From Lactobacillus xujianguonis (lineage in GTDB: Bacteria > Bacillota > Bacilli > Lactobacillales > Lactobacillaceae), in assembly GCF_004009905.1 (NCBI RefSeq), contig NZ_ML136881.1:1-64000 (forward strand): 64,000 nucleotides of DNA, in the 5' to 3' direction. The notes beneath the pieces are model-generated. The model did no database searches, was not told the origin of the DNA, and saw only the letters and a program-made list of their open reading frames with translations. Positions 12,896 to 61,203 of the stretch are shown one piece after another (position 1 is the stretch's first letter; every line of letters starts with the position of its first letter). A program made the translations under genes and the position numbers.

Positions 12896-13246
12896 CTAGT
12901 TTTCAAACCAGTTCCAGTCATTGCCCATCACATGAACATTTGAATCTGGAGCTGGTGCAGCTTGAATCTTTTCTGCTTGAGTTGGCCGCTCAACAGAGAA
13001 GCCACCTTGATTATCTTTCTTAACTAAACCTTCGAATTGAATGACATCGCCAGGATTTAAATCTAAATCCTTAAATGCTTTCGTGTAGTGCATCGCAATC
13101 TTGTTCACTACTACTTCATCCATACTATCAACCTTTAAATCAGTAAATATAGCTTGCCGGTCATTCGGTTGTAAAAAAGTGGCGGTAAAAACATGTCTGG
13201 TACCGTCGTCATATTTTTCCAATTTTTCATTATAAATATCGATCAT
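12896..13246 (-). CDS. Conserved hypothetical protein, OB-like (116 aa)
   Basis: A 116-residue soluble protein beginning MIDIYNEKLEKYDDGTRHVF. The middle (LDLNPGDVIQFEGLVKKDNQ) looks like an OB-type beta-barrel strand pattern, and the end is Trp/Asn-rich (GNDWNWFEN). GAAAGAGGATTTCA precedes the start. It lies downstream of the C1 peptidase gene on the same strand, separated by the structured repeat at 13309-13482. No enzymatic motif; nucleic-acid binding is only a guess. Confidence 0.65.
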   Translation of the reverse strand: MIDIYNEKLEKYDDGTRHVFTATFLQPNDRQAIFTDLKVDSMDEVVVNKIAMHYTKAFKDLDLNPGDVIQFEGLVKKDNQGGFSVERPTQAEKIQAAPAPDSNVHVMGNDWNWFEN

Positions 13247-13308: not shown

Positions 13309-13482
13309 AGTAAGTGGGAAGAAACTTCTCGAGAAATAGCCGAGATAGTGTAGAACCGAATTAAAGCACGTAGTGCTTAATTCGTGTTCGTAACTATAGT
13401 CGGCTATTTCTGTTTCTGACCACGATAATTCTGGAATGGAGAATGCCAAAAGAGTCTAGGAAAATATTTTCCTAGACTCTAA
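13309..13482 (-). repeat. Structured dispersed repeat, copy A
   Basis: Nearly the same sequence occurs at 60318-60490 in the opposite orientation, ungapped over about 135 bp. Copy A contains a perfect 30-base palindrome (13451-13480) directly after the peptidase stop codon; a 12-bp stem formed by AGAAATAGCCGA (13331-13342) and TCGGCTATTTCT; and an inner stem around GCACGTAGTGC. Differences from copy B fall mainly within the paired arms and keep the pairing. It begins right after the upstream gene and ends before the next promoter. Function unknown; it could be a transcribed 3' element or a DNA element. Confidence 0.85.
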
Positions 13483-13489
13483 GGTATCT

Positions 13490-14806
13490 CTATAAGCCAA
13501 TATGTTGCCAAGGTTTCAAATCAATTGCAGGTTGATCAAGCAATGCTAATTGATCCTTGCTCAAGTACTTCTTGTTCACAATTACATCGTAAACATATTC
13601 CTTGAACCATTCATGACTGGCACTGTAGAAACCTTTATCACCGAACTTGTCGCCCCATGAATTTTCTACTTTCCACTTAATAATCTCACCATGATCTTCA
13701 TCGACACCAACTAAGGTCATATCGTGAGTTGCGGAGCCTTCACCTGTTGCCAAACGATCAGCCTTACTCATTTGCGTATTAACGTGGAATAAGTCATCAG
13801 TCTTGTAAAGTTCAGTATCAAGAAAACCAGTCTTTCTTTCCATTTGCTTCAAGACATCGTTACCAAACATTACTGGGTCGCCGCCCTTCAATTGAGCAAC
13901 GGCAGCTTGAGCTAAATCTTCAATTGGTAAGTTCAAGCCAACGATTTGACCACCACCAGCGACGTTATCGTAAATGCCTTGGTGGTAACGTTTGCCATAT
14001 TCAAAGTTAGGACTATTGAGCAAAACAACATAGTCATCAAATGGGAAGTCGCCCAAGTACTTTTGCATAAATTGACGAGGAGTTAAATCCTTTTCCAAGT
14101 GATACTTCTTATCATCATCACGGTATTCAAGGTCAAACTTCTTAGGTGGTTCACCCAAAGCAACAGCCACCATGCGGTAAACTTCGTTCAAGAATTGTTT
14201 CTTGGTCTTTTCAGCTTCATCAAACTTGCCTTCTTGGACTAATTTACGCAAAACCAAGGCGTCTTTTCTTTCCTTACGTGCCAAAGAATCAATCAAAGCA
14301 GTTGTGTTATTAGAATTAAAACTTTCTGGCATAGCGTATGAAGGAACGACACCATACTTCTTGAATAAGTTAACAGCCATTTGCCATAAACCACCGTCTT
14401 GACCAGCAAAGCCTAACCATTCGTCAACTTCTCGATCATCTAATGGCTTTACACCAAGTTCAATCATCTTGTTGTAAAAGGCATTAGCACGTTCAATCTT
14501 ATCCCAGAAGAAGTTAAAAGCTTGTGAGAAGGTAAAGTTCTTAACGTGATACTTCTTACCGAAGTAGTGCCGTAAAATGTTTAAACTTGAAAATTCCCAA
14601 CAACGACCAGAATGCTTTTGATCAGTAACATCACCAATGTCTAATTCAGTTGAGAAAACATGGTTTTGGCGTTCAGAAACACGATCGTTAAAAGAAGCTT
14701 CAAGTAAGCCGCTACGACGAGCAGCACGGGAAGCGATTTGAGTGTCCTTGTTCTTGTTGAAATCGGCAGAAAAGGCTTCAAGTTCTTGTTCTGTTAATTC
14801 AGTCAT
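13490..14806 (-). CDS. C1-family cysteine peptidase, PepC/PepE/PepG type (438 aa)
   Basis: Bleomycin-hydrolase-like cytosolic peptidase. The catalytic Cys is in DQKHSGRCWEFSSLN (about residue 69), the His in SATHDMTLVGVDED (about 361) and the Asn in KVENSWGDKFGDKGFY (about 382). The 438-residue length fits lactobacillus endopeptidase PepE/PepG at least as well as aminopeptidase PepC (about 449); the exact specificity cannot be read. It releases peptides or amino acids from milk- or host-derived oligopeptides. AGAGGAATAATTA precedes the start. Its terminator palindrome is part of repeat copy A. Confidence 0.9.
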   Translation of the reverse strand: MTELTEQELEAFSADFNKNKDTQIASRAARRSGLLEASFNDRVSERQNHVFSTELDIGDVTDQKHSGRCWEFSSLNILRHYFGKKYHVKNFTFSQAFNFFWDKIERANAFYNKMIELGVKPLDDREVDEWLGFAGQDGGLWQMAVNLFKKYGVVPSYAMPESFNSNNTTALIDSLARKERKDALVLRKLVQEGKFDEAEKTKKQFLNEVYRMVAVALGEPPKKFDLEYRDDDKKYHLEKDLTPRQFMQKYLGDFPFDDYVVLLNSPNFEYGKRYHQGIYDNVAGGGQIVGLNLPIEDLAQAAVAQLKGGDPVMFGNDVLKQMERKTGFLDTELYKTDDLFHVNTQMSKADRLATGEGSATHDMTLVGVDEDHGEIIKWKVENSWGDKFGDKGFYSASHEWFKEYVYDVIVNKKYLSKDQLALLDQPAIDLKPWQHIGL

Positions 14807-44562: not shown

Positions 44563-44590
44563 AAAAAAGCCTGGGAAAAGCTCCCAAGCT
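44563..44590 (-). terminator. Terminator of araBD
   Basis: On minus AGCTTGGGA and TCCCAGGCT pair with a short loop, followed by TTTTTTC. Confidence 0.85.
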
Positions 44591-44607
44591 TTCAAGCATC
44601 TATTTAG

Positions 44608-59688: not shown

Positions 59689-59832
59689 TTTGCATTACCT
59701 CACTTATGTGTCTGTATCTTATCGAGTTTTTAAAATTATGTCAACGGTTTTTCAAAAACTTATTCAAAGATATCGATTGACAGCACTCAAAAAATGACTA
59801 ATAATAAAACTACTATTGTGAGGTGCAAAGTA

Positions 59833-60318
59833 GTGAAAAAAGAAGTAGCAATTAAAGATTTTCAATTACCAACTTACAGCGACATCCCTGAGATGGGACT
59901 TTATCTAAAACAAGTCGTCGACTATCTCAATCAACATTTGGCGCCTTTGGGCAATCTTAAACTGACTAATTCCATGGTTAGCAACTATGTCAAGCATAAG
60001 TTGATCACCCCGCCGCAAAGTCGGCTCTATCAGCGCGAGCAAATTGCCACCTTGTTCTTTATCGCCATTGCCAAAAACGTCATGGATCAAGAGGACTTAC
60101 GCAAGGCACTGGCTATTCAAAAAGACACTTACCCGATCGAGGTTGCTTATGACTATTTTGCCAAAGAATTAAAAAATGTCCTGCTCTACGTCTTCGATCA
60201 ACAAGAGCAATTACAAAAAGTCGGTCACGATCACACTAAGCAAAAGCAGATGCTGCGCAACGTGATTATGGCTTTTGCCTATCGTGAATACCTGTATCAA
60301 TTTTTTAGAGAAGTGTAA
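59833..60318 (+). CDS. DUF1836 protein with GTG start (161 aa)
   Basis: Matches the DUF1836 family (PEMGLYLKQVVDYLNQHLAP; TNSMVSNYVKHKLITPP, a helix-turn-helix-like segment; RLYQREQIATLFFIAIAKNV). Possibly DNA-binding. The GTG at 59833 is preferred over an ATG at 59794: GAGGTG lies 7 bases before it, and TTGACA (59777-59782) with a -10 near 59800 would place the transcript start after that ATG. Repeat copy B follows the stop directly. Confidence 0.78.
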   Translation: MKKEVAIKDFQLPTYSDIPEMGLYLKQVVDYLNQHLAPLGNLKLTNSMVSNYVKHKLITPPQSRLYQREQIATLFFIAIAKNVMDQEDLRKALAIQKDTYPIEVAYDYFAKELKNVLLYVFDQQEQLQKVGHDHTKQKQMLRNVIMAFAYREYLYQFFREV

Positions 60319-60490
60319 AAAAATCCTGGGAAAACATTTTTCCCAGGATTTTTACATTCTCCATTCTAGAATTATCGTGGTCAGAAACAGTCAAAGCCGA
60401 CTATAGTTACGAACATGACTTGAATACTTTGTATTCTACGTCAGTTCTACACTATCTCGGCATTGACTCGAGAAGTTTCTTCCCACTCAC
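60318..60490 (+). repeat. Structured dispersed repeat, copy B
   Basis: Same element as 13309-13482, inverted. It starts with a terminator hairpin (AATCCTGGGAAAA with TTTTCCCAGGATT, 60322-60352), then conserved ATTCTCCATTC, a stem AGTCAAAGCCGA with TCGGCATTGACT (one mismatch), an inner stem built from GAATAC and GTATTC, and conserved GAGAAGTTTCTTCCCACT. It reaches the nrdG stop codon (60490), so it fills the whole gap between two convergent genes. Confidence 0.85.
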
Positions 60491-61203
60491 TACTTCAGTA
60501 ATTTATCCCAAATCACAACTTTACCAGCCTTAAGTGACTTCGGTACATCAATAATTCTTTGATTACTCGACCCGCGGAACTGCAAAGTCAGATCTTTCTG
60601 GCTTTCCAAGAAACGACCATCCACTAAAATATCAATCTTAGACAGCATTTCTTTCTTATCTGGAGTTTCTTGTTGCAACTCATCCCAAGTATAACCGGAC
60701 CAGGACCAAATATCCTTGGTGTGGCCAAATTCCTTACGAATCCGGTTAATCACCCGTAAACAGACATTGGTATTCAAGAATGGTTCTCCGCCCAGAAAGG
60801 TTAAACCTTGCACATAAGGTTGCGCCAGATCATTCATAATCCGATCTTCTAGTTCTTGCGTGTAATCAAAACCATAATTAAAATTCTGCGCTGCTAAATT
60901 GTAGCAACCAGGACAATCAAACAAGCATCCCGACACATACAGACTGCATCTAACCCCTTCCCCATCAACGAAGTTAAAAGGTTTATAGTCTGCAATTTTA
61001 TTTAAGCTATAATCTTCAGCCTTCCATTCCTGCGGCTTGGGATTCTTCGGCAAGCGCTTTTGGCGTAATAACTTCTTGGCATGATCAACCTGCATCTTAT
61101 ATTGATTGGAATCAACAAACATCGTGTCGCCATCAATGTTAACTTTGATCATACTTCCGCGCACATCAGGGCCTTCTTGTGTATTTTTATCTTTTTCTGG
61201 CAT
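60490..61203 (-). CDS. nrdG: Anaerobic ribonucleotide reductase activase (237 aa)
   Basis: Radical SAM activase with CLFDCPGC (CxxxCxxC, residues about 93-100), GLTFLGGEPFLN (GGE) and ILVDGRFLESQKDLTLQFRG. The N-terminal about 80 residues exceed the usual 155-200-residue NrdG. It generates the glycyl radical on NrdD. Overlaps nrdD by one base (ATGAGTA-type junction), so translationally coupled. Confidence 0.95.
   Translation of the reverse strand: MPEKDKNTQEGPDVRGSMIKVNIDGDTMFVDSNQYKMQVDHAKKLLRQKRLPKNPKPQEWKAEDYSLNKIADYKPFNFVDGEGVRCSLYVSGCLFDCPGCYNLAAQNFNYGFDYTQELEDRIMNDLAQPYVQGLTFLGGEPFLNTNVCLRVINRIRKEFGHTKDIWSWSGYTWDELQQETPDKKEMLSKIDILVDGRFLESQKDLTLQFRGSSNQRIIDVPKSLKAGKVVIWDKLLK

Follow-up and report, generated by a model that had tools for sequence, protein, structure and literature searches.

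The question raised by this locus, positions 13,309 to 13,482 of the window (the whole 64,000-nucleotide stretch of Lactobacillus xujianguonis DNA that was analysed), is what kind of element a structured repeat lying directly at a gene end might be. An earlier note, made from the letters of the window, described two such copies with compensatory changes and proposed a non-coding RNA, a 3' processing element, or a MITE-like sequence spread between gene ends. The comparisons described below suggest that both copies, referred to as A and B, probably belong to a family of miniature, non-autonomous mobile repeats that lie between a stop codon and a terminator.

Copies A and B and their setting

The two copies are found where the earlier note placed them, in opposite orientations, and align without gaps over a 136-bp core. 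The strand that begins T(G/A)AGTGGGAAGAAAC and ends GAGAATGC or GAGAATGT, here called the R strand, is the plus strand for copy A and the minus strand for copy B. The unit spans about 136 bp and forms one long, interrupted palindrome; its outer arms are of the type GTGGNNAGAAAC, a conserved tail extends from one side only, and a terminator hairpin is often present past this tail. The 136-nt core of copy A, TAAGTGGGAAGAAAC ... GAGAATGC, occupies 13311..13446 (+) and scores 168.6 bits with the covariance model of the family. Its outer arm GTGGGAAGAAAC (13314..13325, +) is matched by the partner arm at 13412..13423, which reads GTGGTCAGAAAC on the minus strand, and the conserved tail, outside the long hairpin, follows at 13424..13446 (+). 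The 136-nt core of copy B is located at 60354..60489 (-) and scores 155.3 bits.

Each core is separated from a stop codon by a terminator-like palindrome, as had been claimed. Next to copy A, a palindrome of the CTAGGAA type (13451..13480, -) lies between the core and the stop codon (13490-13492) of a pepC-like gene (PF03051; 13490..14806, -), this stop preceding the palindrome. Beside copy B, a CTGGGAA-type palindrome with a T-run (60320..60353, +) adjoins the stop codon, ending at 60318, of a DUF1836 gene (59794..60318, +). At its far end, copy B abuts the stop codon of nrdG, a convergent gene (60490..61203, -). This stop codon lies 2 nt away from the copy's AGTG, and copy B follows nrdG in the R sense, an arrangement shared by most of the family. 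A mechanical list of terminators in the window has 11 entries, includes neither the A nor the B hairpin, and flags none as the CTGGGAA type; a plain motif listing places that type at A, at B, and at 44571. The terminator-like hairpin with the CTGGGAA motif at 44565-44593 (-) has no element adjoining it. Beside copy A, a 116-codon frame (12896-13246, -) is without a Pfam or NCBIfam match.

A repeat family at gene ends of two species

A BLAST-type search with copy A retrieves 16 near-full copies, along with shorter matches, from the genome of the window (G000; 2.2 Mb in 81 contigs). The further copies whose absence the earlier note would have taken as a refutation exist: A and B belong to a family with 14 other near-full members in this genome. 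Six full copies are found in the metagenome-assembled genome of “Candidatus Lactobacillus pullistercoris” (G002). A covariance model built from 21 copies recovers the same 16 copies in G000 at 130 bits or more. Core length is nearly constant: among the 21 cores cut (16 from G000 and 5 from G002), 15 are exactly 136 nt long and 19 fall within 135 to 137 nt. The two outliers, L015 (122 nt) and L016 (140 nt), both deviate at the tail; these are mirror-oriented copies that flank one bidirectional terminator (G000:C28:12408-12703), either copy lying behind the stop codon of its own convergent gene, and one of them without a tail. Eleven additional loci in G000 (L017, L018, L021, L022, L024, L046, L064, L173, L175, L176, and L178), called by eye, appear to be remnants that retain an outer arm, the tail, or both. 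L173 (G000:C2:121853) and L175 (C4:28978) are short hairpins made of the two outer arms and followed by T-runs; they may be collapsed elements or terminator-like ancestors, and could also be independent short hairpins.

The family shows a narrow distribution. With strict filters and with some genomes incomplete, the covariance model matches 2 of 75 genomes of the genus (G000 and G002) and 1 of 301 sampled genomes of the family, which is G000 itself; G002 is absent from the same-genus genomes listed for the latter draw. A DNA search of 60 genomes including G000 yields matches in G000, G002, and G018, the last being a 35-bp match to the terminator end of the query only. When 84,980 species genomes, possibly without the window's own, were scanned for an exact pattern, only three stretches in the “Ca. 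Lactobacillus pullistercoris” genome and one in Marinicaulis were found; the latter is a single exact pattern match with no further likeness by eye and is not regarded as a family member. Searches of phage and plasmid collections with blastn give no match, nor do viral contigs contain an exact match to one 18-base pattern, and an origin from phages or plasmids represented in these collections was rejected. Copy A is 81 to 89% identical to the six G002 copies versus 75% identity for pepC DNA, and in a tree of this one gene, pepC, the two species fall in different groups.

Most of the copies lie close to stop codons. Apart from A, every G000 copy (15 of 16) has an open frame in the R sense that ends -1 to 19 nt ahead of its AGTG core. 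The R-sense stop is at most 12 nt away in 14 of the 16, and L010 and L012 supply the stop codon themselves, through the TGA of the element. In G002, three of the six copies lie within 21 nt of an R-sense stop and two within 12 nt. Taken together, 16 of all 22 full copies are within 12 nt, compared with 4.3% of random spacer points (7.9% given the R sense; binomial P of about 7e-18 and 1e-13, respectively), under a null model that uses the spacers of the window, takes its genes from mechanical ORFs, and leaves selection against insertion at other places out of account. For G002 alone, the respective P values are 0.024 and 0.075. Seven of the eleven remnants start within 11 nt of a stop codon, L046, L064, and L173 have none there, and L021 is outside this measurement. 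The upstream genes are diverse and include, from translations read by eye, those for GreA, universal stress protein, signal peptidase, DegV, and aldehyde dehydrogenase; nrdG is the only one that was tested against family models. The insertions show no shift in stop codon usage (7 of 15 non-TAA versus 17 of 52 ORFs of the window; Fisher P of 0.37), and such a shift was discarded. The adjacency to stop codons may reflect a target preference, follow indirectly from a preference for T-runs or terminators, or mean that copies persist where they do no harm; L008 and L013 sit 5 to 6 nt from the stop codon in long spacers, which argues against harmlessness alone. Of the earlier note's proposals, a dispersed element at gene ends, whether MITE-like or 3'-UTR-like, is supported.

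The same gene ends look different in other genomes. No copy is found at the nrdG end in eleven relatives, ten of which have, as judged by eye, a hairpin with a T-run near the stop codon. The G002 counterparts of 12 full-copy sites of G000 (identity over 36 compared residues of 0.47 to 1.00, with weaker orthology for L010 and L011) were likewise read by eye, and none of the 12 has a full copy. At 10 of them a terminator-like hairpin is found near the stop codon; at L010 there is no clear one, and at L008 it is farther off or absent. The L006 site has the lowest identity, 0.47, and its next gene and promoter region also agree between the two genomes. Here, a phosphoglycerate mutase-like gene is followed by a full element in G000 and by a terminator containing 15 bases of the outer arm in G002. 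The reverse is seen at nagA, with a full element in G002 and a remnant in G000. In a comparison of flanks only, those of the other five G002 copies match no flanks of the G000 copies. In G000, convergent PAP2-like and DegV-like genes have their own copy each, on either side of one terminator, and G002 and G007 have the terminator alone. With two gene ends, perhaps three, carrying the element or a remnant in both species, part of the set may have been inherited.

Fold and paired changes

Copies A and B each fold into one long interrupted hairpin, and their differences are mostly located in stems. Compared with dinucleotide shuffles, the z scores on the two strands are -8.16 and -8.64 for A and -6.32 and -6.89 for B, and none of 200 shuffles folds as well. 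Of the two strands, R is the more stable, at -57.3 kcal/mol against -49.5 kcal/mol for the complement in A and -50.4 against -42.3 kcal/mol in B. In the consensus structure, 43 pairs are distributed over three helices, internal loops are present, and the tail remains unpaired; standard pairs make up 98.7% of the 901 cells in the alignment of consensus pairs. The statement that the differences between A and B preserve pairing is mostly correct: A keeps 43 of the 43 consensus pairs, and two are broken in B (alignment columns 28/96 and 52/71), so that the B stem quoted in support, AGTCAATGCCGA/TCGGCTTTGACT, has one mismatch.

The proposed test for covariation gives a strong signal. Changes on both sides affect 18 of the 43 pairs and 64 cells, against shuffled means of 7.3 and 17.8, and none of 500 shuffles reaches either value; these shuffles overstate the case, because the copies share ancestry and themselves served to derive the structure. 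One of the five covariation measures, further pair types, does not exceed the shuffles, 200 of 500 of which reach the same value. The signal is lost when the partner columns are slid by 1 to 3 positions. Several pairs have changed more than once on the tree of copies, the forks of which are mostly weak, and in L013 one base is missing in both arms. In L034 and L035, both from G002, the arms of the inner stem are of different types that are combined in no other copy, which suggests exchange or recombination between copies.

One-sided changes show no strand preference, with 3 G.U and 5 A.C cells on the R strand and 5 and 3 on the other, so that a wobble asymmetry in either direction as proof of an RNA strand was ruled out. 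Since the paired changes have no RNA-strand signature, homogenization at the DNA level, by copying from arm to arm, explains them as well as RNA selection does and is a sufficient alternative. Template switching has been described as a source of hairpins (PMC8794818). The covariation noted earlier is therefore statistically strong, and the step from it to selection on structure, and so to a non-coding RNA, is not established: there is no strand preference, and A keeps all its pairs without the usual gene ahead of it.

These data bear directly on the foremost alternative, which has an appreciable but clearly smaller chance of being correct than mobility: a cis-acting RNA element of the 3' UTR under selection, whose hairpin behind the stop codon would interact with the terminating ribosome or protect or process the 3' end of the mRNA. 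The strong covariation, the better folding of the R strand in both A and B, the two convergent genes with a copy each, and the 14 of 16 G000 copies close behind R-sense stops, where about 4 to 8% would be expected from the spacers of the window, all agree with such a role. However, the wobble pairs have no strand bias, the gap to the stop codon varies from -1 to 19, the genes are unrelated and their orthologs lack the element, and A and three G002 copies are behind no R-sense stop, and A retains every consensus pair.

Probable mobility, terminators, and known repeats

Several non-coding copies at unrelated loci assign the element to the general class of small dispersed intergenic repeats. That these repeats are mobile is suggested by their dispersal at unrelated genes, near-constant length, placement next to stop codons, shortened remnants, and the differences between species, which have the full element, nothing, or a remnant at the same site. 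An enzyme supplied in trans might spread the copies, favoring the A/T-rich stretch that links a stop codon to its terminator; once inserted, the element would become a 3' UTR or intercistronic RNA with its base within reach of the terminating ribosome. Matching of the arms might be maintained by a need for the fold in mobility, by copying of one arm from the other, or by a combination of the two, and, by analogy with known repeats, effects on neighboring genes would be expected. Against mobility, the ends, a target duplication, and a precise empty site are not definable, and inspection by eye shows T-rich flanks at either end. The inverted repeats are not at the very ends, where a strict definition of MITEs places them: unlike in a classical MITE, the conserved tail outside the arms on one side only makes the ends asymmetric.

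Identity to a known transposon end, which the earlier note named as evidence against its proposal, did not turn up in the collections searched. No partner insertion sequence with the same ends was recognized in the 81-contig draft, where motif matches are copies, remnants, or other sequence. The Y1 transposase domain (PF01797) has no matches in G000, and mobilization by IS200/IS605 elements or RAYTs was rejected for this genome. IS110 was also set aside, on position: its two matches in G000 and one in G002 are at other places than the copies. Reverse-transcriptase-like frames are present, interrupted by stops in G000 (C1:163469-164088) and open in G002; they show no link to the element, and targeting in the style of group II introns was set aside.

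The terminators beside the element suggest another, unlikely origin, an expanded class of native terminators similar to SPRITEs, in which stop-adjacent hairpins have grown by arm duplication and template switching with no transposon involved. It would fit the short forms L175 and L173, which consist of outer arms only and then T-runs, the G002 terminator at the mutase site that is built with arm sequence, and the CTGGGAA/CTAGGAA-type hairpins at the tail end, found by a pattern search in 8 of the 21 full copies (L037 was left out, and the pattern missed L009, where a hairpin is seen by eye). In contrast, no T-run directly follows the long core in the R sense, the core is mostly located beside a separate terminator, and the conserved sequence and tail at unrelated loci require copying between sites. 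The CTGGGAA/CTAGGAA hairpin, counted at the copies rather than genome-wide, might either travel with the unit or be a target that the unit prefers. No downstream terminator in the R sense is recognized for 8 of the 21 copies, including L004 and L005; G002 and G007 have one at those gene ends, as if the element had replaced it.

A more specific version of mobility, which we consider similarly improbable, is that the element is locked to its position: it would be inserted or retained where the terminating ribosome touches its base, would thereby link the termination of translation to what happens at the 3' end of the mRNA, and would be spread by an enzyme that recognizes the linker between stop codon and terminator, outside the known pairs of transposases and repeats. 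A multicopy gene for an independent small RNA is very unlikely: the element is structured, with conserved unpaired segments and weak promoter-like matches, but these matches are near the shuffled number (2 versus means of 1.0 and 0.9), the position is tied to gene ends, and Rfam, with no matches in the window and only matches far below the gathering scores at copy A, provides no support for a known RNA family.

The mobile repeat family has partial parallels in other bacteria, by description rather than by sequence in the case of the pneumococcal and bcr repeats. According to excerpts of PMC3049150, the pneumococcal BOX, RUP, and SPRITE repeats are over-represented in the spacers of convergent genes and close to the 3' ends of genes and are rare beyond close relatives, and BOX provides the stop codon in 36 genes, with truncation not strongly evidenced. 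The Lactobacillus element is, like these, a small structured repeat near gene 3' ends; unlike BOX, it is not modular, and it is longer than SPRITE and shows no terminal inverted repeats with target duplication. Compensatory changes are common in REPINs, and the termini of GTAG REPs often supply a stop codon, as stated in parts of PMC3116915 and PMC3733652, respectively. The element shares with REPs and REPINs an inverted unit in one hairpin with compensatory changes, as well as reduced remnants, but is larger, has a one-sided tail, and lacks a Y1 (RAYT) transposase in G000. Repeats bcr1 to bcr18 of the Bacillus cereus group are described, in the portions of PMC3446304 and PMC6542083 consulted, as dispersed non-coding repeats of 100 to 400 bp that are limited to this one group, with bcr1 to bcr3 being MITE-like; roughly every second copy is transcribed as part of a UTR or an operon (PMC3446304), and mobility is tied to TTTAT motifs (PMC6542083). 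The Lactobacillus element is likewise a dispersed non-coding repeat limited to one group, but is associated with stop codons and T-rich flanks instead of TTTAT.

A limited search of the open-licence literature found no comparable repeat family in Lactobacillus. The element adds a well-delimited Lactobacillus family, with an unusually tight placement at stop codons, to the known class of small dispersed repeats. The same gene end with a full copy, a remnant, or nothing across two species represents a natural experiment on a hairpin behind a stop codon and also on the origin of paired changes in repeats, by RNA selection or by copying between DNA arms.
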